The translations under genes and the position numbers were made by a program. The notes beneath the pieces were generated by a model, which saw only the letters and a program-made list of their open reading frames with translations, was not told the DNA's origin and searched no databases. A DNA stretch of 16,455 bases from Acidithiobacillus sulfuriphilus (GTDB lineage: Bacteria > Pseudomonadota > Gammaproteobacteria > Acidithiobacillales > Acidithiobacillaceae). Location of the stretch: positions 1 through 16,455 of the forward strand of contig NZ_RIZI01000129.1 in the NCBI RefSeq assembly GCF_003721225.1, read 5' to 3'. Shown piece after piece: positions 455 to 16,455 of the stretch (position 1 is its first letter; every line of letters starts with the position of its first letter).

Positions 455-464
455 TATTCACTCC

Positions 465-1683: not shown

Positions 1684-1689
1684 AACTCG

Positions 1690-1694: not shown

Positions 1695-1742
1695 AGCGCA
1701 GACCCATGTGGGTATCGAGTCCGTAAATGTCAGCCCTTCTGG

Positions 1743-2094: not shown

Positions 2095-2442
2095 TTATGG
2101 ATTGGCCGGGGGCGCTATGGGAAAACCCCTGCTGGCCCAGGCCGAAATACCTCCGCGCAGATTCAGGACCTGGCTAAACCCCTGTGCCGCTGCGAAGGCG
2201 GCAGCCTGGGCAGATCGTCCGCCGCTGAGGCAGTAAAACACGATGGGACTTTGCTTATCCAGCTTCTGGATCGACATGGGCAAGAGATGCAGCGGGAGAT
2301 GCTGGGCACCATCGATAATGCCCCGCGCCACCTCTGCCGGCGAGCGCACATCAATCAGGGTAAACGCCTCACCCTCCTCACGCAGTGCCTTGAGCTGGTC
2401 AGGGGTAATTTCTTGAAAGCCGTGCATAAGGTGTTCTTCCAT
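2095..2442 (-). CDS. rhd: Single-domain rhodanese sulfurtransferase
   Basis: A 115-residue rhodanese domain. It shows FTLIDVRSPAEVARGII (the conserved DVR...E entry motif), IVFYCLSGGRSAQAA with catalytic C71 and a six-residue active loop CLSGGRS, and the closing NLRGGISAW. Known: single-domain rhodaneses move sulfane sulfur from thiosulfate, GSSH or persulfides to acceptors, and in sHdr loci the rhd product feeds TusA. No signal peptide is visible, so it is cytoplasmic. The start is uncertain: a TTG at 2448, ATG 2442 and ATG 2427 are all in frame and none has a strong ribosome site; ATG 2442 is used here. It follows moaA by about 60 nt. Confidence 0.9.
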   Translation of the reverse strand: MEEHLMHGFQEITPDQLKALREEGEAFTLIDVRSPAEVARGIIDGAQHLPLHLLPMSIQKLDKQSPIVFYCLSGGRSAQAAAFAAAQGFSQVLNLRGGISAWASRGFPIAPPANP

Positions 2443-2501
2443 AGACAATACGATTAACGCCAGAGTTTACACCAAGCACGCGCCGCCTTGCACCCATGCC
2501 C

Positions 2502-3527
2502 CTACCCGCCCAGACGCATCATGAAGATGCGCGCGGAGCGCCCGGGATCGCTGACAAAAAAATGTTTCAGCGGCTTGTCCTGCCAAACTCCCCTGCGCAG
2601 CGCTTCGGCGATATGCTCATCGCCCTGGCCGCCGCGCAGGAGCGGCAGCAGATCAATGCCTGCTTCCTGCCCGAGGCAATACACCAGCCGCCCGCCGGCC
2701 GTGAGCCGGACCCGGTTACAGGTGGCGCAGAAATTATCGCTGATGGGCGTGATGAAGCCCACATGGGTCTGCGTCCCCGGGACCCGAAACAAGCGGGCCG
2801 GGCCATGATCGGCCTGGGCTTCGGCCGGCTCCAGGGGATAGCGTTCGGCAATGAGCCGCCGCGCCTCTTCCGCGCTCAGATATTGCCCATCCTGGGCCTC
2901 CGATCCCGCGACACCCAGCGGCATGGTTTCAATGAAACGGATATCCACCCCTTTGCCAATGGCATAGGCGACCAGCGCGGGCAACTCTGCGCCGTTGCGC
3001 TGGCGGAGCAGGACCACGTTGATCTTGATGCGCGGGATCCCGGCCTTTACCGCCTCTTCAATCCCCTGTTGCACGCGGCCTAGATCACCACCACGGGTGA
3101 TGACCGCAAAAGTGTCGGCATGAAGGCTGTCCATACTGATGTTGAGGTTATTCACCCCCGCCGCCACCAGCCTTGGCGCCAGGCGGCCCAGCAGCAAGCC
3201 ATTGGTACTTACGCTGATTTTGCCGACACCATGGCGCTTGGCCGATTCGATGAGGGAGAGCAGGTGCGGATAAATGAGGGGTTCACCGCCGGTGAAGCGG
3301 ATGTGACGCATGCCTAGATGGGCAAAAAGGCCGATGAGTCGATCGTATTCCTCCACCCGCAGATGGTCGTCGCGATCGAAGTAGGGGGTGCCCTCTTCGG
3401 GGGAGCAATATTCACAACGGAAGTTGCAGTGTTCCGTGACCGAGACACGCAAGTAGCTGATATGCCGACCAAACTGATCGATGAGATCAGCCTCCTTGTC
3501 CATTGCGGAAATGGCGGGTAGCAACAT
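2502..3527 (-). CDS. moaA: GTP 3',8-cyclase MoaA (molybdenum cofactor synthesis)
   Basis: A 341-residue radical SAM enzyme that, with MoaC, turns GTP into cyclic pyranopterin monophosphate, the first stage of Moco synthesis. Seen: the radical SAM motif CNFRCEYC (C34, C38, C41); FTGGEPL for SAM binding; the second cluster motif CATC-x13-C (C267, C270, C284); and the C-terminal double glycine (RLGG) that MoaA needs. ATG 3527 is chosen because TAGGAG lies 7 nt upstream; the internal ATG at 3503 has no ribosome site. It follows soeC by 113 nt, where a weak TTGCAA-N17-TAGATG pair (3604-3632, minus strand) might serve as a promoter. Its place between a Mo enzyme operon and sulfur-transfer genes suggests cofactor supply for that enzyme. 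Confidence 0.96.
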   Translation of the reverse strand: MLLPAISAMDKEADLIDQFGRHISYLRVSVTEHCNFRCEYCSPEEGTPYFDRDDHLRVEEYDRLIGLFAHLGMRHIRFTGGEPLIYPHLLSLIESAKRHGVGKISVSTNGLLLGRLAPRLVAAGVNNLNISMDSLHADTFAVITRGGDLGRVQQGIEEAVKAGIPRIKINVVLLRQRNGAELPALVAYAIGKGVDIRFIETMPLGVAGSEAQDGQYLSAEEARRLIAERYPLEPAEAQADHGPARLFRVPGTQTHVGFITPISDNFCATCNRVRLTAGGRLVYCLGQEAGIDLLPLLRGGQGDEHIAEALRRGVWQDKPLKHFFVSDPGRSARIFMMRLGG

Positions 3528-3640
3528 GGATCACTCCTAGACGAGGGGCACCTGTCCCGGAAGAGAAAAACGGGGCATTTTCACTTGCTCGGCATAGGCC
3601 TCGCATCTAGTTCCATCTTAGACCCTTTGCAACCTTACAT

Positions 3641-4579
3641 TCAACATTGTTGACGACCATGGTAAAGATTAACCACATGCTGGGCCTCGACGAAAAAGAG
3701 CCAACGCTCCACCCCGATACCGAAGAAGACCGATACGACAGCCAGCCACGCCAGGCTGCCAAGTCCTAGGGACAAAGCCAGGGCCAGTGCCCATACGGGG
3801 ATCACAAAAGCGAAGAGGTACATGAGGAACTTGATGGTGTTGGCCTTGGCGGCGGGAATCGTGTGCCCGAACTCCTGGGTAAGAAAGGTGCCGAAGGTGT
3901 GCCCCTGGTCCAGTATGCGCACGTTGGAACGGTTGAAGCCCGTGGCCGTGCGGATGGTGGGACCGTTAGGACGGGCGATCCAGAAATAGTAGATGCCCTT
4001 GAGCACGGCGGCGGCGGCGAGCAGGGCAACGGCCATCCCCACCAGCGTCTGCGCCGGCCCACCCGTAGCGATACGCAAAGCCGCCAGCACGGTCGCGCCG
4101 ATGGCAAGACCCATGGCGTAAAAGTTGGCCGGAACGAGGGGCGTATTCCACTGGCGGATGGTGCGCAGGCAGGCGTAGATCATGCCTTGGCAGAAAATCG
4201 TGATCAGGCCGAGGGCGCCGGCCACATTGGCAAGCAACAGACCCGTTACATCCGCCGATCCGCCGGTGAAAAACACCCATACCAGATAAAGCATGGCGAA
4301 GGGATAGTACAGCACGGCGAAGACGCCCTCGCGGGCGAGCCAGGAGGTCCGCCAGCGGGTAAAGGCGCGCCAGGCGTTCTTCGGGTTGGCCAGATGGGCG
4401 GTGGAGGACAGCATGCCGATGGTGACGAAGAGGACGGACAACAACACTGCCACCATGGTCTGCATGGGGGAGAGGCCGCCGTCGATCTGGAAATCGTTGA
4501 CGATGGCGGTCAGTGCCATGAGTCCGAAACCGCCACCGGAGAAAAGCGTCAGAAAAATAACTGCGAGGGCCGGATGCAT
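3641..4579 (-). CDS. soeC: DmsC-like membrane anchor subunit (SoeC)
   Basis: A 312-residue integral membrane protein with eight predicted helices, at about residues 5-27, 40-62, 83-105, 112-134, 150-170, 176-198, 247-270 and 275-297. The loop with HLANPKNAW and SWLAREG is typical of the DmsC family, not of the ten-helix NrfD type. Known: in SoeABC this subunit anchors the cytoplasmic catalytic pair to the membrane and passes electrons to the quinone pool. ATG 4579 is chosen over an in-frame start at 4600 because AAGGAG lies right before it and it leaves a 10-nt gap after soeB rather than an overlap. The soluble C-terminal end is short. Function as a sulfite:quinone link is inferred from the operon. 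Confidence 0.88.
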   Translation of the reverse strand: MHPALAVIFLTLFSGGGFGLMALTAIVNDFQIDGGLSPMQTMVAVLLSVLFVTIGMLSSTAHLANPKNAWRAFTRWRTSWLAREGVFAVLYYPFAMLYLVWVFFTGGSADVTGLLLANVAGALGLITIFCQGMIYACLRTIRQWNTPLVPANFYAMGLAIGATVLAALRIATGGPAQTLVGMAVALLAAAAVLKGIYYFWIARPNGPTIRTATGFNRSNVRILDQGHTFGTFLTQEFGHTIPAAKANTIKFLMYLFAFVIPVWALALALSLGLGSLAWLAVVSVFFGIGVERWLFFVEAQHVVNLYHGRQQC

Positions 4580-4589
4580 GTTTTTCTCC

Positions 4590-5282
4590 TTAACGCTCAA
4601 CCACGCGGTTCACCCATTCCTTCACCTTGCGGACCGCTTTTTTCTTGAGGTCGTCGGTGGGGATGGGGGCGTGCACGCGGGGTGGCAGGTAGTGATTGGT
4701 GGGGTTGTAATTCAGTTCCGGCATCAACTGGTAGCCGCCACGTTGACGCACCGCCCGGGCGACCGGGCTCTCGGGATCGTCCAGATCGCCGAACATGCGG
4801 GCATGGGCAGGACAGGTGAGGACGCAGGCCGGTTGCCGTTCTTCCTCCGGTATCTCCCGATCATAGATGCGATCGATGCACAAGGTGCACTTCTTCATCG
4901 TCCCGGAGACCCGATCCAGTTCCCGCGCGCCGTAGGGACAGGCCCAGGAACAGTAGTTGCAACCCATGCACTTGTTCTGATCGACAAGGACGATTCCGTC
5001 TTCGGCCCGCTTATAGGAGGCCCCCGTCGGGCAGACCGTAACGCACTCGGCGTTTTCACAGTGCATGCACGACATGGGGAAGTTGATGGTCTTGTTGTGG
5101 GGGTACTCGCCCACTTCGTAATGCCGAATGCGGTTGAACCACACCCCGGACGGCCGTGCCCCGTAGGGATCATAGTCCGTCAGGGGTGCCGTAGTGCCGC
5201 TGGTGTTCCATTCCTTGCAGGCGACCGCGCAGGCATGGCAGCCCACGCAGGTATCAAGGTCAATAACCAGTCCTAGTCGCAT
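4590..5282 (-). CDS. soeB: Four-cluster [4Fe-4S] electron transfer subunit (SoeB)
   Basis: A 230-residue ferredoxin-like subunit of the DmsB/PsrB/SoeB family. Four cysteine groups are present: C12/15/18/22, C72/75/80/84, C105/108/111/115 and C132/135/153/157, enough for four [4Fe-4S] clusters that wire the Mo site to the quinone-reactive anchor. No signal peptide is visible. ATG 5282 is used; it follows AAGGAG by 7 nt and lies 19 nt after the soeA stop. The gene is in tight order soeA-soeB-soeC, so the three form one unit. Length and cluster pattern are normal. Substrate is set by the A subunit. Confidence 0.92.
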   Translation of the reverse strand: MRLGLVIDLDTCVGCHACAVACKEWNTSGTTAPLTDYDPYGARPSGVWFNRIRHYEVGEYPHNKTINFPMSCMHCENAECVTVCPTGASYKRAEDGIVLVDQNKCMGCNYCSWACPYGARELDRVSGTMKKCTLCIDRIYDREIPEEERQPACVLTCPAHARMFGDLDDPESPVARAVRQRGGYQLMPELNYNPTNHYLPPRVHAPIPTDDLKKKAVRKVKEWVNRVVER

Positions 5283-5301
5283 GAGTGCTCTCCTTGCCCC
5301 G

Positions 5302-8160
5302 TCACGATTTGAGGTTGACGGGCTGATGCGTATGGTAGCGCAAGACGTCCGGCGCAGGCCTTGCGCCGGGGATCGGCTTGATGGTGGCAAAGGTCGGCCA
5401 GACCCCTTCCTCACCGGGGGCCGCCGGGTAGACCTTGACCATCAGGTCATACCACGCGGCCTGGCCGGTCACCGGGTCGGAATTGGTGATCCGCCGTTCC
5501 CCCTGTTTTTCGGGAAGCAATTCGGAGATCAGGTGATTCATGAGGAAACCCTTGGTAGCCTCCGCGGCATCGGGCTTCAGGCCCCAGGCACCCGGCTGCT
5601 TGCCGATGGCATTCCAGGTCCAGACCGTATCTTCCTGGCAACCCTCGATGAGCTTCACCTGGACGCGGATCTTGCCGTTGTGGGATTCCACCCAGACCCA
5701 ACTCTGGTCGACAATCCCCAGTTGCTCCCCTTTCTTGCGGTTCATGTAGAGGAAATTCTGGGCGATGATCTGGCGCAGCCAGGCGTTTTGGCTATCCCAG
5801 GAGTGGTACATCATCATGGGGCGCTGATTGACGGCGTAAAAAGGATATTCCGTCTTGTCGATACGCTGCTGCTCCAGCGGCTCGTAGAAATCCGGCAGGG
5901 GATCGAAATATCTGGCCAGGCGCTCGCGATCCGCGGGATCCTTGGGCTGGGGACCGTCATAAAGGCCCTGTCCCGCCAAACGGAAGCGCTGGAAGGTCTC
6001 GGAGTAGAGCTCGATGACGATGGGATTGGCCGTCGGATTGAAGCCGGCATGCTGCGCAAACTCCAGATACTCCTTGTTGGCGAAGCGGTAGTAGCGCATG
6101 GACTCGGGCAGATGGTATTGAAAGAAGCCCTGATGCTCGATGTAGCGTTCCCATTGCTCGGGATTGGGCTCGCCGCGCAGGCTCTTGCTGCCATCCTTGC
6201 CGCGCCATCCCGCCAGAAAACCGATGCCCGGGGCGCGCTCGTAATGGATGATGAAGTCCTTGTATCCGCTAAACCTGGGCTGACCGTCCTCACGGGTGAA
6301 GGCGGGGAATTTCAGCCGTCCCGCCAAGTCCACCATGACCTCCTGCCACGGCCGCACGTTGCGATCCGGCTGCAACAGGGGATGGCGAATGGAATCGCAC
6401 ACGGCATCGGGCTCGGAGATGGGCCGGTCGAGCAGGGATATGGCGTCGTAACGCTCCAGATAGGTGGTGTCGGGAAGCACCAGGTCGGCGAAGTTGACCA
6501 TTTCCGAGTGAAAGGCGTCCACCACCACCAGAAAGGGGATCTTGTACTCGCCCTGCTCGTCTTTGGACTTGAGCATTTCCTGCACATTGGCCGTGTTCAT
6601 GGTCGAGTTCCAGCTCATGTTGGCCATGAAGAAGATCAGGGTATCAATGGCGTAGGGATCATGGTTGACGGCATTGGTGATCACCATGTGCATCAAGCCA
6701 TGATTGGCGATGGGCGCCTCCCAGGAGTAGGCCTTGTCAATCCGCCTGGGGTTGCCATCGGCGTCGATGACCAGGTCCTCGGGTGCCGTGGGGAAACCCA
6801 GGGGCAAGGATTTCAAGGGGGTATTGGGCGCGCTGTCCTGGGCCGGCTTGTTGGGCGGCGGGACATGCTTGGGGTAGGGCGCCTTGGAGCGGAACCCGCC
6901 GGGGCAGTCGATGGTGCCCAACAGGACCTGCAGGAGGTGGATGGCACGCGCCGACTGCAGGCCGTTGGAATGGGCGGAAATGCCGCGCATGGCATGCATG
7001 GAGACCGGGCGGCCGATGAAGCGATCCTGCTTGCGGCCGGCCCAATCAGTCCATTCGCATTCGATTTCGATGCTTTCCTGGAAGGCCACATGGGCCATTT
7101 CCAGCGCCAGGCGTTCGATGGTCTCGGCGGGAATGCCGGTGATCTTGCTGGCATTCTTGGGCGAGAACTGCTCGTCGGTGTACTTTTCGGCGAGGATGGA
7201 CATGACCGTGCGCACGGGACGGCCATCGGGGGCGGCAAATTCACCGAACATGGCCGGGGAGATGCCCGCCTGCATGCCGTTGACAAAGGCCTCCTGCCGC
7301 AGATCCCAAACCAACGGATGGCCATCGGCGTCGCGCGCGATGAGGCCGTCACCCCGTTGTCCCGGGGTATTGACCACAAGGAAGGGGGCGTTGGTATAGC
7401 GCACCAGGAAATCCCAGTCGAAGAGTTCGTTGTTGAGCAACACATGCACCATGGATAGGGCGAACATGCCGTCGGTACCCGGTTTGATGGGCACCCATTC
7501 GTCGGCGATGGCCTGATAACCGGTACGCGCCGGATTGATCCCGACAAATTTGCCGCCGTGGCGCTTGAGCTTCTCCAGGCCGATCTTCATGGGATTGGAG
7601 GAGTGGTCTTCGGCGACGCCCCAAAGCATGAAGTATTTGGTCCGCTCCCAGTCGGGGTCGCCAAACTCCCAGAAGGCATGGCCCAGCATGTACAGCCCGG
7701 CAGTGGCCATGTTCACCGAGCAGAAACCGCCGTGGGCCGACCAGTTGAGGGTGCCGAACTGCTGGGCCCAGAGGCCGGTGAGGGCCTGCATCTGGTCGCG
7801 GCCGGTAAAGAAGGCCAGCTTGTTGGGGTCCGTGGCGCGGATATGGCTGAGGCGTTTGGTCAGCAGTTCCAGGGCCTCATCCCAGGAAATCTCCTCAAAC
7901 TCCCCGGCGCCACGCTCGGATCCGGGTTTGCGGATGAGCGGGTTGCGCAGCTTGCCGGGGGAGTACTGCTTCATGATCCCCGCCGAGCCCTTGGCGCAGA
8001 GCACACCCTGATTGATGGGATGGTTCCGGTTCCCCTGGATAAAGCGTACCTTGTTATCCTCTACCGTGACCTTGATGCCACATCGGCAAGCGCACATGTA
8101 ACACGTGGTATATTTGATTTCCTGCTTGCCGTGATCTTCAAACTGCATGACGGTAGCCAT
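5302..8160 (-). CDS. soeA: Cytoplasmic molybdopterin oxidoreductase, probable sulfite dehydrogenase catalytic subunit (SoeA)
   Basis: A 952-residue member of the DMSO reductase family. The N-terminal [4Fe-4S] motif is C20xxC23xxxC27 ... C55, with an extra cysteine at C25. C147 in GGFCSVN is the likely Mo ligand, as in the polysulfide reductase branch. FADLVLPDTTYLE and the C-terminal molybdopterin-dinucleotide domain are present. There is no twin-arginine signal, so the enzyme stays in the cytoplasm, which fits SoeA and argues against periplasmic SreA, PhsA or TtrA. Known: SoeABC oxidises sulfite to sulfate and reduces quinone; sulfite is the product of the neighbouring sHdr system. ATG 8160 is chosen because GAGG lies just before it; 54 extra in-frame codons upstream look non-coding. 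The substrate is inferred from context and localisation; related thiosulfate or polysulfide enzymes remain possible. Confidence 0.85.
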   Translation of the reverse strand: MATVMQFEDHGKQEIKYTTCYMCACRCGIKVTVEDNKVRFIQGNRNHPINQGVLCAKGSAGIMKQYSPGKLRNPLIRKPGSERGAGEFEEISWDEALELLTKRLSHIRATDPNKLAFFTGRDQMQALTGLWAQQFGTLNWSAHGGFCSVNMATAGLYMLGHAFWEFGDPDWERTKYFMLWGVAEDHSSNPMKIGLEKLKRHGGKFVGINPARTGYQAIADEWVPIKPGTDGMFALSMVHVLLNNELFDWDFLVRYTNAPFLVVNTPGQRGDGLIARDADGHPLVWDLRQEAFVNGMQAGISPAMFGEFAAPDGRPVRTVMSILAEKYTDEQFSPKNASKITGIPAETIERLALEMAHVAFQESIEIECEWTDWAGRKQDRFIGRPVSMHAMRGISAHSNGLQSARAIHLLQVLLGTIDCPGGFRSKAPYPKHVPPPNKPAQDSAPNTPLKSLPLGFPTAPEDLVIDADGNPRRIDKAYSWEAPIANHGLMHMVITNAVNHDPYAIDTLIFFMANMSWNSTMNTANVQEMLKSKDEQGEYKIPFLVVVDAFHSEMVNFADLVLPDTTYLERYDAISLLDRPISEPDAVCDSIRHPLLQPDRNVRPWQEVMVDLAGRLKFPAFTREDGQPRFSGYKDFIIHYERAPGIGFLAGWRGKDGSKSLRGEPNPEQWERYIEHQGFFQYHLPESMRYYRFANKEYLEFAQHAGFNPTANPIVIELYSETFQRFRLAGQGLYDGPQPKDPADRERLARYFDPLPDFYEPLEQQRIDKTEYPFYAVNQRPMMMYHSWDSQNAWLRQIIAQNFLYMNRKKGEQLGIVDQSWVWVESHNGKIRVQVKLIEGCQEDTVWTWNAIGKQPGAWGLKPDAAEATKGFLMNHLISELLPEKQGERRITNSDPVTGQAAWYDLMVKVYPAAPGEEGVWPTFATIKPIPGARPAPDVLRYHTHQPVNLKS

Positions 8161-8417
8161 TTGCACCTCATCTTTAATGCCGTAGGGCTCTGAAACTGCT
8201 GCATAGGGAGACGTCCAAAGAACTGCGCAGCGACCGCCGGTGCGGGGAAGCACGTGGCGGCCGGGGTGTTTTGGAGACTTTCCGTGGGAGTGATGGTGGC
8301 TGAGCAGGCACCGATAAAGCAACTCAGCGTTTTTGATTTTGTAATAAACAGGGCTTATTTGCTTTGCCGGCGCTGCGGTGATTAGTTTAGCTGGCGTTCA
8401 ATCGAAGGAGACACCCC
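8161..8417. promoter_or_regulatory. Divergent control region between soeA and the 101-aa gene
   Basis: About 257 bp without a gene. It must hold promoters for soeA (left) and the small gene (right). Near the right side an AT-rich patch (8329-8362) contains TTGATT-N17-TATTTG (8333-8361, plus strand), a modest sigma-70 candidate. An interrupted inverted repeat CCGCC-G-GTGC / GCAC-GT-GGCGG (8234-8260) lies in the probable soeA leader and could be an operator or RNA hairpin. No sigma-54 -24/-12 pair was found here. The soeA promoter was not located. Confidence 0.45.
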
Positions 8418-8723
8418 ATGAACCGAAGCGATTTCAAAGAGCACATGCGCATGACCGTGGCCTGGCGCGACAAGGATGGCAAACTGCGCCCGGGCAACTT
8501 CTACATTTATGCCCTTTTCAATGATGCGATGATCGTTCGCGCCACCGACAAGGACGGCCTGCTGCGCAAGCTCGCCTATGCCGATGTGCTGCGCATCGTC
8601 AAGTCGCAGGACGTCGCGCCCCAGGACCGTTACCTGATCCCCGATGAAATCCTGAAGGAAGCCAACTGGAAGGATCGGGAATTCATGGAGCGTTACAGCT
8701 CTTCGCCCCATCGCGGAAAGTGA
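8418..8723 (+). CDS. Small conserved-looking protein of unknown function
   Basis: A 101-residue soluble, charged protein; I do not recognise its family. The ATG has an excellent GAAGGAG site 7 nt or so upstream and GC-rich codon use like its neighbours, so it is very likely a real gene. Seen: no cysteine, no signal peptide and no membrane segment. The middle (residues 28-67) reads as alternating short beta strands (FYIYALFNDAMIVRAT, LRKLAYADVLRIVKS), which would suit a small SH3- or Sm-like barrel, with a helical charged tail. It is divergent from soeA and convergent with moaC, so a link to the Mo enzyme (accessory or regulator) is possible but only from position. Confidence 0.8.
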   Translation: MNRSDFKEHMRMTVAWRDKDGKLRPGNFYIYALFNDAMIVRATDKDGLLRKLAYADVLRIVKSQDVAPQDRYLIPDEILKEANWKDREFMERYSSSPHRGK

Positions 8724-8729
8724 GGCCGT

Positions 8730-8760
8730 GGAGGCAGCGGCACCCTATTGACCTGCCTCC
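8730..8760. terminator. Convergent hairpin between the 101-aa gene and moaC
   Basis: The perfect 8-bp inverted repeat GGAGGCAG / CTGCCTCC (8730-8737 and 8753-8760) with a 15-nt loop lies between two converging genes and overlaps the last codons of moaC. There is no T-run on either side, so it is a possible bidirectional, Rho-assisted or 3'-end-protecting structure rather than a classic intrinsic terminator. Confidence 0.4.
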
Positions 8761-9245
8761 CATAGTCCGCTGCGGCCGCCCTCCTTACGCAGGAGGCGAA
8801 TGCCCTGGAGCTGCATGCCGCGATCTATGGCCTTGCACATGTCATAGACGGTGAGCAGGGCAACGGTTACTGCCGTGAGGGCCTCCATCTCCACACCCGT
8901 CTGCCCCAGGCAGCGCACCTGCGCCTGACAGACGATGCGTGGGGGGGTTGCTTCGCTGCGAAATTCGATATCCGCACTGGTGAGCGCCAGCAAATGAGCC
9001 AGGGGAATCAGCTCCCAGGTCTTTTTGGCGGCCTGGATGGCAGCCAAACGCGCCACACCCAGCACATCCCCCTTGCCCATGCTGCCAGCCTGGATCCTGG
9101 CCAGGGTACCCTCTGCCATGACAATATACCCTTCGGCAACGGCGGTTCGGGTCGTTGCGGCCTTGCCCCCCACTTCCACCATATGCACGTGACCAGAACG
9201 ATTGAAATGGCTCAACTCGTCCGACACCGGCGGTTCTTGACTCAA
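8745..9245 (-). CDS. moaC: Cyclic pyranopterin monophosphate synthase MoaC
   Basis: A 166-residue MoaC, partner of MoaA in making cPMP for molybdenum cofactor. Seen: [18 protein letters not shown] near the N-terminus; [11 protein letters not shown] with H84; [23 protein letters not shown] (D135, K138), the family's longest motif; and catalytic-site lysine K154 in [10 protein letters not shown]. The start is TTG 9245, supported by GAGGTG 5 nt upstream on the minus strand. The first conserved motif begins at residue 11, so any later start would cut close to it. Small departures from the usual motif, such as AHLL where CHPL is common, leave the key histidine intact. It is separated from moaA by the soe operon rather than lying in a moa operon. 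Confidence 0.95.
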
Positions 9246-9301
9246 CTTGGCACCTCTTTTGCTAGGATTATGGAACTATTGTCTGGAGACGGGACATTGC
9301 C
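9246..9301. promoter_or_regulatory. 56-bp divergent gap between moaC and the tandem PhnD gene
   Basis: This short gap must carry the promoter for the sensor operon on the plus strand and the moaC leader on the other. A weak plus-strand pair TTGGCA-N16-TATGGA (9247-9274) fits, with five of six and three of six consensus bases. It is suggestive only. Confidence 0.3.
9251..9256 (-). promoter_or_regulatory. moaC ribosome binding site deciding a TTG start
   Basis: GAGGTG on the minus strand, 5 nt before TTG 9245. No ATG lies in frame before the conserved LSHFN motif, so this site supports TTG initiation. Confidence 0.6.
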
Positions 9302-10837
9302 ATGATCATCCCCATTCGCATTCTGCTGTGTCTTATCTTCTTCGTTTTCAGCCCGGCGGCGCAAGCACAGTTGCGATTACTGCTGCCTCCGGTGAGCAGC
9401 CCCGCCACCATGTATGCGGCCTTTGCCCCCCTGGCGGCCTATCTGGGCAAGGCAACGGGAGAAACGGTGACCTTGCACTTCAGCGCCAACCTGGACAGCT
9501 TTTATGCCGAGGCGAAGATGCCCGTCGCCCAGGTCACGTTTTTTTGCCCCATTGCCTATCTCAAGGTCGCCCATGAGGATCGCTATTTCCCCTTGGCGGA
9601 AGTGAACCCTACACCGGGCGGCGACCGCAGCGTCATCCTCGTACGCAGGGATAGCCCCATCCATAACGTCCTGCAACTGCGCGGATCCAGTTTTGTCGCG
9701 GGGGATCCCGCTTGCGCGGCATCCTCCCTGATCCCCCTCACCCTGTTGCAGGAGGCCGGGCTGACGCCCAAGGACTTTCACGTCTTTCGGCAAACGGGAA
9801 GCGATCAGAGCGCTCTCATGGACGTGGCCGCCCGCTTTTATGATGCCACTGCCGTGGCGGAGAATGTGGCGGCACCGTACTTGCGGGCAGGCACGCTGCG
9901 GGTGATCGGACAGGCGCCCGTGGGGCCCGGCGACTTGCTGGCCGCCTCGGGAAAAGTGCCTGCGCCGCTGCGCGCCCGGCTGACAACGGCCTTGCTGGCC
10001 GCGACCCGGAATGCGCCGGCGGCCATGACGGCGTTGGCGGGTATGGTGCGTGGATTCCAACCCGTACAGGATGGGGACTATGCCGTGCTGCGCACCCTCT
10101 ATGCGGATCTTTTCGGCGTGGCGCTCACGCCCAAGCGCAACTCCATGGCCATGAGCTTCGCCATTCCACCCACCTATACCCCCATGGCCGCCTACCAGAT
10201 TTTTGCCCCCCTGCGGGAGGCCCTGGCGCGGGCCATTGGCCGCCCCGTGCGCCTGGTCATCCCTGCCGATCAGCAGGACTTTGTGCAGCAGGGCCGCCGC
10301 GGCGCCTATGATTTCAGCTTGCTGACGCCTGCCATGGTGACGGCAGAGCGGCGCACCATGACCCCCCTGGCCCGCTCGCTACCCAATCCCAGCGCGCAAC
10401 GCATTGCCATCATTGCCCGCGAGCCCGTTTCCCTGGCGGTACAGGCCCTGCAACCGCCTTTGCGCATAGCCTATGCGGGACCTTACTGCAGCGCGCGCGA
10501 GGCGGCGCTGCCGGCGCTGCACAGCCGGGAGCGGGGAACGCAGCCTTTTATCTGGAAGGCGGTGGGATCGGAGCGTGCCGTATTCACCAGTGTCGCCAAT
10601 GGATCGACGGACCTTGGGGTCGTACGGGCGGCCACCTTTAGCTCCCTCGACCAGGCTCTGCCCGGGGCGTGGACCGTCCTGATGACGGTGGGCACGGCGG
10701 CACCGTGGAGCTTTGCGGTGAATCGCCATTTTTCGCCGGCGCAACGGCAGGTACTCCTCCAGGCCATGCTTCACCTGGCACCCAACGCCCTCTCCGGTGC
10801 GGGCTTTGCGCGTTTTATCCCCATCCCCCATGAATAG
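9302..10837 (+). CDS. Exported tandem PhnD-like substrate-binding protein, probable sensor partner of the kinase
   Basis: A 511-residue protein with a clear signal peptide (residues 1 to about 22, cleavage after AQA). It consists of two similar halves, about 24-275 and 282-511. Both begin PPxxxPxxxYxxFAPLxxxL (F41 and F301 align) and share PLAxxxPxP and RxPxxL further on, which marks an internal duplication of a PhnD-like type 2 periplasmic binding domain. Each half has a cysteine at the same place: C138 in GDPACAAS and C396 in AGPYCSAR. Known: PhnD domains bind phosphonates in ABC transport but are also the sensory part of TtrS-type kinases for tetrathionate or thiosulfate. No ABC permease or ATPase is nearby; the stop overlaps the kinase start (ATGAATAG). 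I infer a ligand-sensing partner of the kinase. The ligand is unknown, a sulfur oxyanion being likely. Confidence 0.85.
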   Translation: MIIPIRILLCLIFFVFSPAAQAQLRLLLPPVSSPATMYAAFAPLAAYLGKATGETVTLHFSANLDSFYAEAKMPVAQVTFFCPIAYLKVAHEDRYFPLAEVNPTPGGDRSVILVRRDSPIHNVLQLRGSSFVAGDPACAASSLIPLTLLQEAGLTPKDFHVFRQTGSDQSALMDVAARFYDATAVAENVAAPYLRAGTLRVIGQAPVGPGDLLAASGKVPAPLRARLTTALLAATRNAPAAMTALAGMVRGFQPVQDGDYAVLRTLYADLFGVALTPKRNSMAMSFAIPPTYTPMAAYQIFAPLREALARAIGRPVRLVIPADQQDFVQQGRRGAYDFSLLTPAMVTAERRTMTPLARSLPNPSAQRIAIIAREPVSLAVQALQPPLRIAYAGPYCSAREAALPALHSRERGTQPFIWKAVGSERAVFTSVANGSTDLGVVRAATFSSLDQALPGAWTVLMTVGTAAPWSFAVNRHFSPAQRQVLLQAMLHLAPNALSGAGFARFIPIPHE

Positions 10838-12416
10838 GCCCGCGCCCGAAATCGCCACCAACGCAATGCCCGAAAAGGCGTTTTATCCGGGCCGGGCGAG
10901 GCGCAAGTCCGCCCATCCCGACATCGGCGTAGTGCAGGACCGCACAACCGCCCCTTTTCCGCCGGCCCGCAACGCGCTCCTTGAACTTCCCGGCCGGCTT
11001 TGGCAACGCTTGACCTGGCCGGCAAAGAGCATGATCTTCGTCCTGTTGGTCATCGCCCTGATTTACGCCCTCATTGCCATTTTCCTCTATAGCTCCGTCC
11101 GCAATGACCTTACCGGCCAGGTACAGACGGAATTGCAACGCCTGACCAGCAATCTCGCCGCTAGCGCCACCGATCCTCTCCTCCTGAAAGACGGCGGCGC
11201 CCTGGGCAAACTTGCCGAGGCGCGCAACCCATTGGTGGAGCGCATCACCATCGCCGATCGGCAAGGCATCGTGGTGGCCAGCGGCAATTTGTCCCGATTG
11301 GGCCAAATTCAGCATCGCCCGCTCCCCAACGCCGCTGGCTATAGCGGGACCCGTTTTTATGCACCCATCGTCGCCGGTGGCCAGCGCCTTGGAGCGGTCT
11401 GGGTGGATGGCAACTCGGGAAGAATCCATGCCCTGGTCAACGCCCGCCTGGACAGGACCAGAAATCGCTTACTCATCCTGGGCGGCATTACCGCACTGAT
11501 GGGCTTACTGGGTGCCTATCTGGTAAGCCGCGCGGTGACCCGGCCGGTACTGCGCCTTCTCGGGGAGATCGAGGGTATGGAAGCGCAGCTCCGCACGGAG
11601 GACCGGCCAACACCCGCACCGCCGCACATCGAAGGTGACGAGCTCCATCGTCTGGACTTCGCCTTCAAGCGGGTGGAAACCCGTCTGCGCGAACATCTGA
11701 ACGAGTTGAATCAACTGCATCGGCGCCAGCAGGCCATGCAGTGCATGGCCACCATCGGCGAAATGTCGGCGCAGGTGGCCCATGAGATTCGCAACGCCCT
11801 CTCTTCCCTGCGCGGCGCTGCGCGCTTTTTGGTGCGCTATGGTGACGACAAGAACCGCGACGAGTTCCTCCGCATCATCGAGGAGGAAGTCAAGCGCCTC
11901 TACGACATGACCCAGGGCTTTCTCGACTTCGGCAGGCCTTATGCCGCCCTGCGCGTGGAGGCCGAGATCCTGCCCCTGCTCACCCGCAGCGCCGCCCGCC
12001 ACGGCGCCGATCTCGAAGCCAAATCCATCGGGATATCCATACAATGCGCACCCGGGCTCCACGCCGTTCTTGATGCTTCGCTGCTGGAGCAAGCGATCAG
12101 CAACCTGCTCCTGAACGCCATTGATGCCGTACCCTCCGCGGGCGGAGAGATCACCTTATATGCCGTCGCCGATGTCGACCAATCGGTCTTGATCGGCGTG
12201 CGCGATAATGGTCCCGGCATTCCCGGCGACAAGATCCAGACCATCTTCAAGCCCTACGTCACCACCAAAACCAAGGGCAGCGGGCTGGGACTGGCAGTGG
12301 TGACCAAGATCATGATGGTGCATGATGGTCAGGTGGAATTGCGTCCCAGCGCCGAGGGCGCCGACTTTGTGCTGCGTCTGCCCCGTCATCCCCATCCTCC
12401 CCCCCAACAAAATTGA
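10830..12416 (+). CDS. tspS: Membrane histidine kinase of the sox sigma-54 two-component system (TspS-like)
   Basis: A 528-residue sensor kinase. Order: 66-residue cytoplasmic N-terminus, helix about 67-88, periplasmic region of roughly 120 residues that looks like a single Cache-type domain, helix about 212-232, HAMP, dimerisation domain with phosphorylated H318 (VAHEIRNALSS), N box (NLLLNAIDAV), and ATP-binding boxes (DNGPGIP, GSGLGLAVV). This is the NtrB-like HK class that partners NtrC-type regulators. ATG 10830 overlaps the previous stop by 8 bp, which suggests translational coupling; no strong ribosome site is seen, and ATG 10866 is an alternative. Known: a sigma-54 pair named TspS/TspR controls sox in Acidithiobacillus caldus; the name here rests on position and domains. 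Confidence 0.87.
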   Translation: MNRPAPEIATNAMPEKAFYPGRARRKSAHPDIGVVQDRTTAPFPPARNALLELPGRLWQRLTWPAKSMIFVLLVIALIYALIAIFLYSSVRNDLTGQVQTELQRLTSNLAASATDPLLLKDGGALGKLAEARNPLVERITIADRQGIVVASGNLSRLGQIQHRPLPNAAGYSGTRFYAPIVAGGQRLGAVWVDGNSGRIHALVNARLDRTRNRLLILGGITALMGLLGAYLVSRAVTRPVLRLLGEIEGMEAQLRTEDRPTPAPPHIEGDELHRLDFAFKRVETRLREHLNELNQLHRRQQAMQCMATIGEMSAQVAHEIRNALSSLRGAARFLVRYGDDKNRDEFLRIIEEEVKRLYDMTQGFLDFGRPYAALRVEAEILPLLTRSAARHGADLEAKSIGISIQCAPGLHAVLDASLLEQAISNLLLNAIDAVPSAGGEITLYAVADVDQSVLIGVRDNGPGIPGDKIQTIFKPYVTTKTKGSGLGLAVVTKIMMVHDGQVELRPSAEGADFVLRLPRHPHPPPQQN

Positions 12417-12447
12417 ACCGTTATTGACCTTGCGAGAATACGACCCC

Positions 12448-13815
12448 ATGCCCAAGCCCATCTTACTGGTCGAAGACGAAAAGAATCTCCGCCACGTCCT
12501 GCTTGCCGTCCTCAACGCCGAGGGCTTCAGCACCATGGAGGCCGAGAGCGCCGAACAGGCCCTGGAGCGGCTGAACGAGGCCATGCCCGCCCTGATCCTA
12601 TCGGATCAACGTTTGCCGGGCATCTCCGGGACCGAGTTGTTGCGCACCGTCAAAAAGCGCTACCCGCAGTTGCCCTTCATTATTACCACCGCCTACGGCG
12701 AGATTGAACAGGCCGTAAACGCCATCAAGGCGGGTGCCGAGCACTACCTCACCAAACCCGTGGATGAGGGGGAACTCATAGCCCTCATTCGCCAGACCCT
12801 CAGCCGCTTCGGCACACCCTTGCCGCCCATGCGCCAGGAGCCGCGCCGCCACGGCCTGATCGGCATCAGCCGCGCCATCGAAACCCTTCTCGAGATCATC
12901 GATCTGGTGGCCCCCGCCCCCTCCAATGTGCTCATCACCGGCGAATCGGGCACCGGCAAGGAACTGGTAGCCAAGGCCCTGCACCTGGCCTCGCCGCGGG
13001 CGGAGCAGCCTTTTGTGGCCTTCAACTGCGGGGCCATCCCCCTGGAGTTGGTGGAAAGCGAAATTTTCGGCTACGAACGGGGCGCCTTCACCGGCGCGAC
13101 GCGCTCCCAACCCGGCAAACTCGAACTGGCAGCCAACGGCACCCTCTTCCTCGATGAAGTGGGCGACATGCCGTTGTCCATGCAGGTCAAGCTCCTGCGG
13201 GCGCTGCAGGAACGCGAGTTCACGCGCCTGGGGACCCATCAGCCCGTGCGCCTGTCGGCGCGCATTGTTGCGGCAACCCATGTGGACATCACCAAGGCCG
13301 TGGCGGAAGGGCGTTTTCGCGAAGATCTGTACTATCGGCTCAATGTCATCCCCCTCCATATCCCGCCCCTGCGGGAAAGGCGGGCCGACATCGCCCCCCT
13401 GGTGCAGCATTTTTTGGGGCAGGTTTGCCAGGCCATCGGCCGGCCGGCGATGAGTATCACCCCGGAAGCCATGGTCGCCTTTGAAGCCTATGACTGGCCC
13501 GGCAATATCCGTCAGCTCGAAAACCTCATTGAACGGATGGTGGTCCTCAATCGTCACGGGGTTATCCAACGCGCGGATCTGCCCGCCGAACTGCACCAGG
13601 CCCAAGGCGAGGGCGGTGATGTTCCCGGTGCCGGCCCCTTCGATTTGCCGGCGCTGGAACGCCAGACCGTGCTGGGCGCCTTGGAAAAGACCCGTTTCAA
13701 CCAGAGCCAGGCCGCCGTCCTCCTCGGCATCAGCCGCAAGCAGTTACGCACGCGCATGAAAAACATCGGCCTCCTCGGGGAGCAGGACGGCGAGGATGAC
13801 AGCGGCGAAGGTTGA
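12448..13815 (+). CDS. tspR: Sigma-54-dependent NtrC-type response regulator (TspR-like)
   Basis: A 455-residue regulator with three domains. Receiver, residues 1-120: acidic pocket E9/D10, phosphorylated D53 (LSDQRLPG), K103. AAA+ domain, about 135-370: Walker A GESGTGK (165-171), GAFTGA (212-217) that contacts sigma-54, Walker B GTLFLDE (231-237), arginine-rich [16 protein letters not shown]. Fis-type helix-turn-helix, about 405-440. All key residues are present, so it should be a working activator. It begins 31 nt after the kinase stop; the ribosome site is weak (GCGAGA). ATG 12448 is chosen because the receiver fold starts at once. It precedes a -24/-12 promoter in front of soxX, so sox is its evident target. 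The name TspR follows the A. caldus system by inference. Confidence 0.92.
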
Positions 13816-13852
13816 GCCGGGACGTCCGCACCCTTTCTGCAGGCTGGTCCGT

Positions 13853-13867
13853 TTGGCACAGTACCAA
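13853..13867. promoter_or_regulatory. Inverted repeat, candidate activator (UAS) site 1
   Basis: TTGGCACAGTACCAA has two 7-bp arms around a single central base, with one mismatched pair. It ends 88 bp before the -24 element, a normal distance for an NtrC-type enhancer. Binding by the upstream regulator is inferred. Confidence 0.45.
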
Positions 13868-13898
13868 TCGCCGCCCTTCTCCAACAGATCCTTACCTT

Positions 13899-13909
13899 GT
13901 CTGGCAGAC
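13899..13909. promoter_or_regulatory. Inverted repeat, candidate activator (UAS) site 2
   Basis: GTCTGGCAGAC is a perfect 5-bp inverted repeat around one base, 46 bp before the -24 element. Its sequence differs from site 1, so the two may bind different proteins, or one may be chance. Confidence 0.3.
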
Positions 13910-13955
13910 GCCGTGAATTGTGCTATAAACAAAGGCACCGGTGTCGTTCTGGCAA

Positions 13956-13971
13956 TGGCATGAAACATGCT
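13956..13971 (+). promoter_or_regulatory. Sigma-54 (-24/-12) promoter of the sox operon
   Basis: TGGCATGAAACATGCT matches the sigma-54 consensus closely: GG at 13957-13958 and GC at 13969-13970 with exactly 10 bases between. Transcription would begin near 13982, giving a leader of about 40 nt before soxX. The sigma-54 activator gene directly upstream supports it. Confidence 0.82.
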
Positions 13972-14021
13972 TAAAGAAAACCGTCGCCCCCGTGGCAACG
14001 GATGCGCCAAAGGAGGAGTCC

Positions 14022-14414
14022 ATGAAAATCCATTTGCTGCAGTACATCACCCGATCCCTCGTTATCGGAGCAATGTCCATCGTTCCATTTGGCGCATCGG
14101 CCCTGGCCGAGGGCGCCGACATGACGAAAAACATTGACGCCGGCCGCACCCTGGCCTTCGATCGGGCCAAGGGCAACTGCCTCGCCTGTCATGCCCTGCC
14201 GGGTGGCACCATGGCCGGCGATGTGGGGCCGGCCCTACCGATGAAGGGCGTTACTTTCCAACAAATGTTCCAGACCAAGGAAAAACTGGTGGCATTCCTT
14301 GCCGATCCGGAAAAGATGTTTCCCTACGCCAATATGCCCGAGTTCGGAAAAAACAAAGTACTCACCCATGAGGAATTGGGCCTCATTGCCGACTATTTAT
14401 GGTCATTGAAATAA
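14022..14414 (+). CDS. soxX: Monoheme c-type cytochrome SoxX
   Basis: A 130-residue exported protein, signal peptide to about residue 29 (ASALA). One heme motif CLACH (53-57) and a likely axial methionine M105 in NMPEFG identify SoxX, which pairs with SoxA to join thiosulfate oxidatively to the SoxY cysteine. ATG 14022 is chosen: AGGAGG lies 5 nt before it, whereas the longer in-frame start at 13941 lies upstream of the sigma-54 promoter and cannot be in its transcript. First gene of the operon, 24 nt before soxY. Confidence 0.94.
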   Translation: MKIHLLQYITRSLVIGAMSIVPFGASALAEGADMTKNIDAGRTLAFDRAKGNCLACHALPGGTMAGDVGPALPMKGVTFQQMFQTKEKLVAFLADPEKMFPYANMPEFGKNKVLTHEELGLIADYLWSLK

Positions 14415-14424
14415 CATACTTGCA

Positions 14425-14430
14425 AAGGAG
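14425..14430 (+). promoter_or_regulatory. soxY ribosome binding site deciding a GTG start
   Basis: AAGGAG, about 8 nt before GTG 14439. The next in-frame ATG (14454) lies just before the twin-arginine pair and has no ribosome site, so GTG is preferred. Confidence 0.65.
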
Positions 14431-14438
14431 TATTAGTC

Positions 14439-14954
14439 GTGACGAAAAACACCATGCAACGACGTCAGTTTTTGAGCGCAACTCTTGCTACCGGTGCCGT
14501 GGCAACGGCGGCGGGGCTGGGTTTGCTGCGCCCCCAGCTCGCCTTTGCCGGTGATGTCTCGGGCTGGCCGGCCAAAGCCTTTGATGCCAAAGTCCTGAAC
14601 GACGCCATGATGGCCAGCGTCGGCAAAACCGATGTCCCGGTTTCTCCCAAGGTCAAGCTGACCGCCCCCTCCATCGCCGAAAACGGCGGTGCCGTCCCCG
14701 TCACCATCGAGGTGGATTCGCCCATGACGGCGGACGACTATATTACTACGGTATATCTCTTTGTTGACCACAATCCGACGCCATTGGCAAGCCAGTTCAG
14801 TTTTACGCCGGCTTCCGGCCAGGCCTACATCCAGGAACGCATCAAAATGGCCAAGACCGACAACGTGCGCGTCATCGCCAAGACCAGCAAGGGCGAGCTT
14901 CTGGCTTCCGCTCCCCGCGAAGTCAAGGTCACCATCGGCGGCTGCGGCGGCTAA
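14439..14954 (+). CDS. soxY: Thiosulfate carrier protein SoxY
   Basis: A 171-residue exported protein with a twin-arginine signal (QRRQFLSATLATG, residues 7-19), so it is probably exported folded and with SoxZ as a hitchhiker. The immunoglobulin-like body ends in the flexible GGCGG arm with C169, the cysteine on which sulfur intermediates are carried during the Sox cycle. GTG start, see the ribosome site entry. It lies 24 nt after soxX and 33 nt before soxZ, the usual order. All hallmark residues are present. Confidence 0.96.
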   Translation: MTKNTMQRRQFLSATLATGAVATAAGLGLLRPQLAFAGDVSGWPAKAFDAKVLNDAMMASVGKTDVPVSPKVKLTAPSIAENGGAVPVTIEVDSPMTADDYITTVYLFVDHNPTPLASQFSFTPASGQAYIQERIKMAKTDNVRVIAKTSKGELLASAPREVKVTIGGCGG

Positions 14955-14987
14955 CTCCATAACCAATCGAGACGAAAGGACTGAACC

Positions 14988-15320
14988 ATGGCAGACAATA
15001 TCGGCAATCCAATGCTTCGCATGCCCAGCACGGCGAAGAAGGGAGAACTCGTTGAAATCCGCTCCCTGATCATGCACCCCATGCTCACGGGGCTGACCAA
15101 GGACAAGAGCGGCAAACTGATTCCCGCCCATTTCATCCAGACCGTTACGGCCACCTTCAACGGCAAGCCCTTGCTCGACATCGACTGGAGCACTGCGGTG
15201 AGCGCAAACCCATTCCTCGCCTTCAAGATGCGAGCCGAAGACAACGGCACCTTGAAAGTGGTATGGAAGGATAACCAGAATGGCGACTGGAGTGCGGAAT
15301 CCAAACTCACGGTAAGCTGA
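14988..15320 (+). CDS. soxZ: Thiosulfate carrier partner SoxZ
   Basis: A 110-residue beta-sandwich protein that forms the SoxYZ heterodimer. Family landmarks: EIRSLIMHPMLTG, the KSGKLIPAHFI loop, FNGKPL, and SANPFLAFKM followed by KVVWKDNQNGDW. There is no signal peptide, as is normal, since SoxZ is exported with SoxY by the Tat route. AAAGGA lies 7 nt before the ATG. The length is typical. It is followed by a hairpin and then soxA. Confidence 0.96.
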   Translation: MADNIGNPMLRMPSTAKKGELVEIRSLIMHPMLTGLTKDKSGKLIPAHFIQTVTATFNGKPLLDIDWSTAVSANPFLAFKMRAEDNGTLKVVWKDNQNGDWSAESKLTVS

Positions 15321-15325
15321 GTGAT

Positions 15326-15346
15326 CGGGGCGGATCTACCGCCCCG
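15326..15346 (+). other. Stable hairpin between soxZ and soxA
   Basis: CGGGGCGG / CCGCCCCG forms a perfect 8-bp GC stem with a 5-nt loop (ATCTA), starting 6 nt after the soxZ stop and ending just before the soxA ribosome site (GAGGAGG). There is no T-run, so it may mark RNA processing or 3'-end protection inside the operon rather than termination. Confidence 0.6.
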
Positions 15347-15367
15347 CTTGATAGAGGAGGAAAGACC

Positions 15368-16231
15368 ATGAAGCGGTGGCTGATTGCGCTTTCAATCGCC
15401 GGGCTCACCGGCATCAGTGGTGCGGCCCAAGCGGTCAACTGGTGGGATCTGGGCAATATCAAGGTAGGTCCTGATGAAACCTTGAAACAATTCCACGAAT
15501 ATTTCAAGCAGCGCTTCCCCAATATACCTTTGGAGAAATATGCTATAGGCTCTTACGCCTTTAATCCAGAGATGTATAGTCAATACCAGGAGGCCATGCA
15601 ATTCAATCCTGGCGATCTTACCCTTTCTGCCGGGCAGAAACTCTGGGATATCCCGTTCAAGAACGGCAAGACCTATGCCAGTTGTTATCCCAATGGCGGC
15701 AAGGGCGTCGCCACCCATTATCCTTACTTCGACGACAAAACCAAGACCGTCGTCACCATCGGCACCAGCATCAACGCCTGCCGCAGCGAAAACGGGGAAG
15801 CGCCACTCAAATATGGCAGCCCCGACATGGTCGCCCTGCAAACCTATCTGACTTCCCTGTCCAATGGTATGCCCATGGCCATACAGGTTTCGGGTCCTGC
15901 GGCCACCAAGGCCTTCGAGGAAGGCAAGGCATATTACTTCATGAAGCGCGGTCAATTGAATTTTTCCTGCGCATCTTGCCACGTTGCCTATCCCGGCAAA
16001 TATCTGCGTGACCAGATCATTTCCCCCGTGTTAGGCGAGAGCGCGCACTTCCCCAGCTATCGGGCGGCATGGTCTTCTGTCAACACCTTACAGAAGCGCA
16101 TAGAGGGCTGTAACAAGAATGTAGGAGCCGAACCGCAGCCTCTGGAAAGCGTGGATTACCGTAATCTGGAGTACTTCATGTCGTATTTAAGCAACGGCAT
16201 CAAGATCAACGTGCCGGGCTATCGTCCCTGA
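15368..16231 (+). CDS. soxA: Monoheme-type cytochrome SoxA
   Basis: A 287-residue exported protein with signal peptide (residues 1 to about 22, AAQA). One heme motif is present, CASCH (201-205). Where diheme SoxA proteins carry a first CxxCH there are only single cysteines C106 and C138, which fits the monoheme class with a disulfide there. C248 in RIEGCNKNVGA is the active-site cysteine that, as a persulfide, ligates the catalytic heme. Together with SoxX it forms SoxAX, which starts the Sox cycle. The ATG follows GAGGAGG by 7 nt. An AT-richer stretch with rare-looking codons covers about residues 51-75. Length and motifs are normal for the class. Confidence 0.94.
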   Translation: MKRWLIALSIAGLTGISGAAQAVNWWDLGNIKVGPDETLKQFHEYFKQRFPNIPLEKYAIGSYAFNPEMYSQYQEAMQFNPGDLTLSAGQKLWDIPFKNGKTYASCYPNGGKGVATHYPYFDDKTKTVVTIGTSINACRSENGEAPLKYGSPDMVALQTYLTSLSNGMPMAIQVSGPAATKAFEEGKAYYFMKRGQLNFSCASCHVAYPGKYLRDQIISPVLGESAHFPSYRAAWSSVNTLQKRIEGCNKNVGAEPQPLESVDYRNLEYFMSYLSNGIKINVPGYRP

Positions 16232-16239
16232 TCTCCGCT

Positions 16240-16264
16240 GGCGGCGCCGCAGGCTGGCGCCGCC
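16240..16264 (+). other. Very GC-rich hairpin downstream of soxA
   Basis: GGCGGCGCC / GGCGCCGCC is a perfect 9-bp stem with a 7-nt loop (GCAGGCT), starting 9 nt after the soxA stop. It is followed by CTTCCCTC, not by a T-run. It could attenuate transcription into the next gene or protect the upstream message. Confidence 0.55.
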
Positions 16265-16298
16265 CTTCCCTCACCCATGCCGATATGGAATGCGTCCC

Positions 16299-16455
16299 AT
16301 GAACTATTACAGATCGTCGCAAATTCTCTCTGCGTTAGGCCTGCTGGGAATTTTCCTGCTGCCTGGACAGGCCCTGGCCAGGACACCAGCCACCAGCTCT
16401 CCCGCCCCCGTGGCGGGAATGCCGGCCATACCCGCCAATTCCCCCCTATACGTCG
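16299..16455 (+). CDS. Exported protein of unknown family after soxA, partial (N-terminus only)
   Basis: The frame is open from ATG 16299 to the edge (52 codons). Residues 1-27 form a classic Sec signal (QILSALGLLGIFLLPGQALA), followed by a Pro/Ala/Ser-rich stretch as in a periplasmic linker. There is no twin-arginine motif, so it is unlikely to be soxB. A small SoxK-like SoxAX partner or another periplasmic protein is possible, but nothing visible decides. An in-frame ATG at 16290 would add three residues; GGAA at 16287-16290 fits the 16299 start better. It lies 67 nt after soxA, beyond the hairpin. Confidence 0.65.
   Translation, partial: MNYYRSSQILSALGLLGIFLLPGQALARTPATSSPAPVAGMPAIPANSPLYV

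Follow-up and report, generated by a model that had tools for sequence, protein, structure and literature searches.

Of the regulators of sox, the histidine kinase TspS has been proposed to sense thiosulfate. The present sequence is a 16,455 nt stretch of DNA from Acidithiobacillus sulfuriphilus (NZ_RIZI01000129.1, positions 1–16,455, assembly GCF_003721225.1; referred to here as the window), in which a gene for a tandem PhnD-like binding protein (9302–10837) overlaps the start of tspS. This protein probably serves TspS/TspR, the switch for sox, as its sensor in the periplasm; the switch would then be a three-component system of the XSR type (as in AioXSR). The reading draws on the tandem protein with its export-type N-terminus, the overlap with tspS, the conserved place of the gene, a sigma-54-type promoter and a two-cysteine pocket. 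The features concerned are as follows.

9248–9263, forward strand: sigma-54-type promoter TGGCACCTCTTTTGCT, 54 bp before the binding-protein start
9302–10837, forward strand: tandem PhnD-like (PF12974) binding protein, 511 aa, export-type N-terminus, proposed sensor component
9368–10126, forward strand: binding-protein domain 1, residues 23–275, with C82 (codon 9545–9547) and C138 (codon 9713–9715)
10148–10834, forward strand: binding-protein domain 2, residues 283–511, with C396 (codon 10487–10489)
10830–12416, forward strand: TspS sensor histidine kinase, 528 aa
12448–13815, forward strand: TspR sigma-54-dependent response regulator
13845–13860, forward strand: putative TspR site TGGTCCGTTTGGCACA upstream of sox
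13956–13970, forward strand: sigma-54-like site TGGCATGAAACATGC before soxX (soxX ATG at 14022)
14022–16231, forward strand: soxX-soxY-soxZ-soxA, presumed target operon

The binding-protein reading frame runs from ATG to TAG and is not a chance frame, because its full-length orthologues are 93% identical in the same genus and 44–57% identical in other genera of the family. The N-terminus resembles a signal peptide by eye (a hydrophobic stretch, and A-x-A before residue 23), and PF12974 matches two stretches, with 218 bits together and 145.4 and 78.3 bits when scored separately, both above the curated cut-off. An AlphaFold model of the protein alone shows two complete flytrap domains, at about residues 19–275 and 283–511 (mean predicted local distance difference test score, pLDDT, 89.4; predicted template modelling score, pTM, 0.85), and the two domains are 26% identical over 193 aa (E 3e-9). 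The tspS ATG at 10830 gives an overlap of 8 bp with the binding-protein gene (ATGAATAG). The kinase has two transmembrane helices around a single Cache/PAS-like periplasmic domain, near CitA, and lies with the sigma-54 activator directly upstream of soxXYZA. The observations of an initial annotation, made from the window alone, thus hold: it had described an exported, duplicated protein overlapping the kinase start by 8 bp, with no ATP-binding cassette (ABC) partners (no permease or ATPase partner is found in the window), next to a kinase with its own small periplasmic domain and a sigma-54 activator before sox.

Place, homology (TspR orthologues are 57–80% identical) and a putative related upstream activating sequence (UAS) identify the window's kinase and activator as TspS/TspR, already published as a sox regulator of Acidithiobacillus. 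In the available parts of the papers, the published account covers A. caldus and A. thiooxidans, with thiosulfate as the potential signal sensed by TspS in the published model and TGTCCCAAATGGGACA as the sequence bound by TspR (PMC6335251, PMC12194929); TspS is given as the sensor in both and in PMC10531304. The terms phnd and phosphonate are absent from the available parts of PMC6335251 and PMC12194929, as is phosphonate from those of PMC10531304. A described binding-protein partner of TspS was not found in the literature covered, which was available in part, was mostly non-subscription and did not include the original TspS/TspR description (Li 2017, doi 10.1007/s00253-016-8026-2). The earlier suggestion that the system as a whole may be undescribed is corrected in two points: the kinase and activator are TspS/TspR, and the architecture is that of AioXSR/ArxXSR, a parallel that the initial annotation had not drawn. 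What is new here is the conserved place of the binding protein before TspS and its two conserved cysteines; the kinase pair and the XSR architecture were already known.

The binding-protein gene stands directly before tspS in 27 of the 28 examined genomes having the protein, in three families (G031 and G049, with weak PF12974 matches, were excluded from this count as other proteins), so that the gene keeps its place beside the kinase, a point on which the initial annotation had made its proposal depend. In the family itself, the protein is present in 24 of 29 genomes (G000–G028), with the kinase directly next to it on the same strand in 23; the exception is G012, where the contig ends inside the binding-protein gene. 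The gene is also split by contig ends in G014. In G015 (L099, 9995–11511) the tandem protein is broken up into one frame of 359 aa and another of 152 aa, either genuinely or through a sequencing error. The five genomes without the protein (G018, G020, G022, G025 and G028) carry only a TcsS-like paralogue of the kinase. In 11 of 15 relatives the binding-protein stop and a possible kinase start overlap, by 4 or 8 bp. Locus counts contain two genomes twice (L100/L118 and L101/L116).

Thiohalorhabdus (G150, G264) and a further family of the order (G029, G030) have a single-domain version at the same place, and the double module, which had been taken as characteristic, was therefore dropped as a defining feature. 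The order in these outgroups is SoeABC, orf8418, moaC, an M48 peptidase with TPR, binding protein, TspS, TspR and soxXYZA; orf8418 was not seen in L182, and the peptidase was identified in L087, L088 and L182, not in L181.

The trio of binding protein, tspS and tspR persists where sox is reduced to soxYZ (L116) or gone (L108, Acidithiobacillus ferrianus), and this strengthens the place beside tspS. The retention of the trio also shows that targets other than sox are possible. Two points weaken the argument from place. Conservation extends to the entire neighbourhood, so that adjacency to tspS is not fully independent evidence. PhnD-like proteins lacking the cysteines also stand near kinases, in 5 of 53 other loci (with cysteine positions taken from a profile alignment, and 59 fetched loci inspected out of more matches). 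At L183 (6097–8273, G109) a PhnD-like protein that lacks the two cysteines has a 4-bp overlap with a histidine kinase of another kind; this pair of periplasmic binding protein and kinase looks unrelated. In L108 the trio occupies 7923–12493, the sox genes are gone from the locus and an mreB-like gene (by eye) comes next; here the trio may have other targets. Decaying sox clusters, with soxA or soxX broken or missing and soxYZ kept, were seen at L104, L105, L094, L095 and L101/L116.

TspS might instead sense through its own Cache domain, the binding protein being just co-transcribed, with a periplasmic role in sulfur metabolism such as carrying or scavenging sulfane sulfur or a metal for Sox/Soe enzymes. 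The Cache/PAS-like domain near CitA, the paralogue TcsS, which has no adjoining binding-protein gene, and the setting in a sulfur-metabolism cluster are all consistent with this. However, the protein accompanies TspS and not TcsS, often overlapping the tspS start, and it stays with TspSR where sox is gone (L108) or only soxYZ is left (L116), which makes this explanation unlikely, though far from negligible.

The pocket of domain 1 gives the sensory reading its chemistry. C82 and C138 are both present in 108 of 113 collected binding proteins, a set that contains near-copies (P0001 of the window protein; P0023, P0024 and P0030 of three loci), and the four full-length exceptions fall outside the clade of the window protein. 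Both are found in all tandems, 22 of 22 from Acidithiobacillaceae and 45 of 45 others; among single-domain proteins, C82 occurs in 41 of 46 and C138 in 42 of 46. They are the sole cysteines of mature domain 1, and align with G65 (C82) and S127 (C138) of PhnD, ligand-contact positions in PhnD/AioX. In the AlphaFold model C82 precedes helix 83–90 and C138 precedes helix 139–151, helices that presumably lie in different lobes, by the general topology of periplasmic binding proteins.

The remainder of the pocket is different. The AioX residues Tyr88, Tyr131, Ser161, Ser163, His192 and Asp210 are not kept in domain 1, and the equivalents of PhnD Y47, Y93, S127, S129, H157 and N175 are L64, D108, C138, A140, S167 and V185 (the PtxB alignment puts D168 instead of S167 at the H157 place). 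AioX Cys106 corresponds to PhnD Gly65, and the pairings Thr128/Asn162 and Asn175/Asp210 are given likewise in the available part of PMC5908839; how both Tyr and the His match up between the AioX and PhnD pockets is our own assignment. Because most contacts to a tetrahedral oxyanion are lost and two cysteines are present, a plain sulfur-oxyanion pocket is doubtful. The initial annotation had a binding protein presenting a sulfur oxyanion to the kinase; the sensor role remains the best reading, and it is the oxyanion pocket that is in doubt.

The two cysteines could also be joined across the cleft by a disulfide, structural or redox, so that the protein would report the periplasmic redox state and not a ligand, an idea partly compatible with the sensory reading. 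Their being the only cysteines of mature domain 1, each before a helix, would fit, but homologues use the same positions for ligand contact, and the disulfide is considered improbable.

The arsenic sensors are among the closest parallels. The nearest solved folds to the binding protein are PtxB, ArrX and AioX, and the arsenite systems AioXSR and ArxXSR combine a free PhnD-like protein, a kinase and a sigma-54 activator, the same architecture as the window trio; ArrXSR has the three-part design with a different type of regulator (PMC5908839). AioX, ArxX and ArrX resemble the window protein in being exported proteins of the PhnD-type PF12974 fold whose genes lie beside a kinase and a response regulator, and AioX shares with it the cysteine at the Cys106 place (C82). 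Unlike AioX, the window protein has C138 for the Ser161 equivalent and has not kept the remaining pocket residues, and unlike AioXSR the trio has a tandem sensor in Acidithiobacillaceae and lies beside sox and not arsenic genes. The aioXSR genes of NT-26 have RpoD and RpoE2 promoters (PMC6011840, available in part), in contrast to the sigma-54-type promoter here. Sox and Soe-like genes stand where XSR systems have arsenic molybdoenzyme genes, and no arsenic molybdoenzyme is indicated at the locus by the NCBIfam models, arsenite oxidase reaching 17.5 of 359 and ArrA 97 of 1600, far under cut-off. A direct AioX orthologue was rejected, since the window protein lacks most of the AioX pocket and its gene has no arsenic neighbours.

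These likenesses also bear on a rival reading, in which the protein senses not sulfur but a thiol-binding metal or metalloid (arsenite, Cu, Hg). A pair of thiols suits As(III) or Cu(I), and acid bioleaching habitats are metal-rich. The thiols would coordinate the ligand as Cys106 of AioX, at whose position C82 stands, does arsenite (PMC5908839). The neighbours are, however, sox and a Soe-like molybdoenzyme with arsenite oxidase and ArrA models far under cut-off, the other AioX pocket residues are missing, and the named relatives of the protein are from Thiohalorhabdus, unnamed Gammaproteobacteria and Nitrospirota/Desulfobacterota including Candidatus Sulfobium, so that a metal sensor is quite improbable.

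The initial annotation had compared the protein with TtrS-type kinases. In TtrS and ThsS a PhnD-like domain is the likely periplasmic sensor in sulfur metabolism (PMC5408782, available in part), as proposed here, and this part of the comparison stands; there the domain is fused to the kinase, whereas in the window the two are separate, overlapping reading frames. The closer likeness does not stand: the nearest solved folds are the three named above, and the TtrS-like domains have AFGG[WY] opposite C138 (all 3 domains) and NPxx[YF] opposite C82 (both domains aligned there), with no cysteine, in a thin comparison (an alignable domain in 3 of 11 fetched loci). A TtrS-like identity was rejected. 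NF040750 matched in 10 of 369 genomes of a class sample at E <= 1e-60, none above cut-off. In BvgS, whose periplasmic domain (4q0c) is among the Foldseek matches, two flytrap domains in series also feed a kinase; they are fused to it in BvgS and form a free protein here. The BvgS flytraps belong to different flytrap families.

An ordinary ABC-transporter binding protein for phosphate, phosphonate or sulfonate, here by accident, is highly improbable and was rejected although Pfam and source names label the protein PhnD-like, since its immediate neighbours in the loci inspected (the range of this check, as against unlabelled reading frames further off) are moaC or the M48 peptidase gene, and tspS, with no ABC genes, since the transporter models TIGR03431 (84 of 261 bits) and TIGR01098 (67 of 112 bits) stay under their curated cut-offs, and since, compared with PtxB, PhnD and HtxB, it has no adjoining transporter genes and its pocket Ser/Thr, Tyr and His are replaced.

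For the sensory reading, the following course can be imagined. The binding protein would sample the periplasm, and domain 1 would close on thiosulfate, tetrathionate or some other sulfane-sulfur compound that touches or reacts with the C82 and C138 thiols. The closed form would dock on the small Cache domain of TspS and shift its kinase/phosphatase balance, and phosphorylated TspR would activate sox from the upstream site, with sigma-54. Domain 2, which changes faster, would be an addition that perhaps helps in docking or tuning. We infer the sulfur ligand from gene context and organisms; the contact with TspS is inferred as well. If correct, the conserved, translationally coupled two-cysteine partner is a concrete sensor candidate for TspS, and the XSR design extends from arsenic to sulfur, with relevance for bioleaching bacteria and for sulfur-sensor engineering. 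A bolder and rather unlikely proposal is a new family of binding proteins that sense sulfane-sulfur compounds through thiol chemistry. In these PhnD-like flytraps, one cysteine from each lobe would take part in clamping tetrathionate, thiosulfate or polysulfide or in forming an adduct with it, and closure would drive a kinase. Such sensors would be used by the sulfur oxidisers Acidithiobacillus and Thiohalorhabdus and by the tandem-bearing Nitrospirota and Desulfobacterota.

The promoter TGGCACCTCTTTTGCT scores 10/10 against TGGCAC-N5-TTGC. A search of 260 bp upstream in 24 Acidithiobacillaceae loci (22 genomes) found this motif about 50 bp before the binding-protein start, at 10/10 in 23 loci and 9/10 in the other, and an alignment of 12 loci shows no change in the letters of the promoter and varied flanks. 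There are five TGGCACNNNNNTTGCT sites in the 2.8 Mb genome of the window, and none for a reversed-pattern control. All four outgroup loci reach just 6–7 of 10 within 260 bp; L087 and L088 have a 10/10 match about 390–400 bp upstream, inside the M48 reading frame. One caveat is that the reverse complement overlaps the likely moaC Shine-Dalgarno sequence. In L118 the spacer is changed and the Shine-Dalgarno motif weakened, and the sigma-54 letters are kept. Autoregulation of the sensor operon by TspR was considered and rejected, as no UAS lies within 260 bp; when 15 loci were searched with each locus's own UAS form, L107 (A. marinus) and L110 (A. montserratensis) had an 11/12 match at −299 and the other 13 had none. 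The promoter suggests that the sensor level is itself regulated, by some activator.

Domain 2 is the more divergent half. Mean pairwise identity is 0.660 for domain 1 and 0.448 for domain 2, with domain 1 higher in 231/231 pairs, and a second comparison gave the same direction in 990/990 pairs. C396, which aligns with C138 of domain 1, is present in 22/22 Acidithiobacillaceae and 0/45 other tandems. In a domain tree, Acidithiobacillaceae domain 1 clusters (99) with the single-domain proteins from G029 and G030, the further family of the order. The second domains form long branches in this quick tree, and those of Acidithiobacillaceae and of Nitrospirota/Desulfobacterota may or may not share an origin. 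Proteins named Nitrospirota, Candidatus Sulfobium and Desulfobacterota/Deltaproteobacteria include tandems of about 500 aa that also carry both cysteines. A scan of viral sequences found no relative, and no plasmid record covered 80% of the query, the best 20 of 733 matches being PhnD-type over 51%.

PF12974 matches six stretches at five places in the A. sulfuriphilus genome, including the binding-protein gene. Two of the others, inspected by eye, have no PhnC/PhnE-type neighbour within 1.5 kb and no evident export signal: at L004 (985–2199) the domain follows a STAS-like N-terminus next to an ammonium-transporter gene, and at L002 (1366–2601) it lies in a longer reading frame next to a UbiD-like gene (labels by eye). 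The remaining two places are weaker matches.

The rest of the window, and the additional outgroup gene, are as follows.

First part of the window, reverse strand: genes for an HdrC-like protein, DsrE2, rhodanese, MoaA and a SoeABC-like molybdoenzyme (a label assigned by context; no NCBIfam equivalog model passes)
8418–8723, forward strand: orf8418, 101 aa, between soeA and moaC
Between orf8418 and the tandem binding-protein gene, reverse strand: moaC
L087 4458–5918, L088 4645–6393, L182 8256–9719: M48 peptidase-TPR gene, flanked by moaC and the single-domain binding-protein gene

The protein of orf8418 is 51–83% identical across three families and has no match in Pfam or NCBIfam. The M48-TPR gene was not found at the same place in the Acidithiobacillaceae loci inspected.

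Upstream of sox, the window has the UAS variant TGGTCCGTTTGGCACA where A. caldus has its published UAS, with 9 of 12 fixed positions (3% of shuffles are as good); its form TGGTCCN4GGCACA (13845–13860) is single copy in its own genome. An exact copy of the published UAS separates tspR from sox in L097 (G006) and L087, as it does on the opposite strand in L088, and L112 has the same palindrome with a different spacer. In 21 of 26 loci a match as good arises in <=6% of shuffles, the others being L105, L106, L108 and both Thiohalorhabdus loci. In a genome-wide search for TspR targets in A. ferrianus and others, the pattern TGGCCCN4GGCRCA gave 13 matches in seven genomes versus 12 for the reversed control (4 versus 0 in G008). 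The site TGGCATGAAACATGC before soxX has two mismatches and is at chance level alone, with 8 such matches in the window versus 8.1 expected; several relatives have comparable TGGCAC-N5-CTGC sites. At L191 (G028:C96:18045-18060) the same UAS-like palindrome, TGGCCCTTTTGGCACA, lies after tcsR and before the next gene, which suggests that TcsR and TspR share a binding site.

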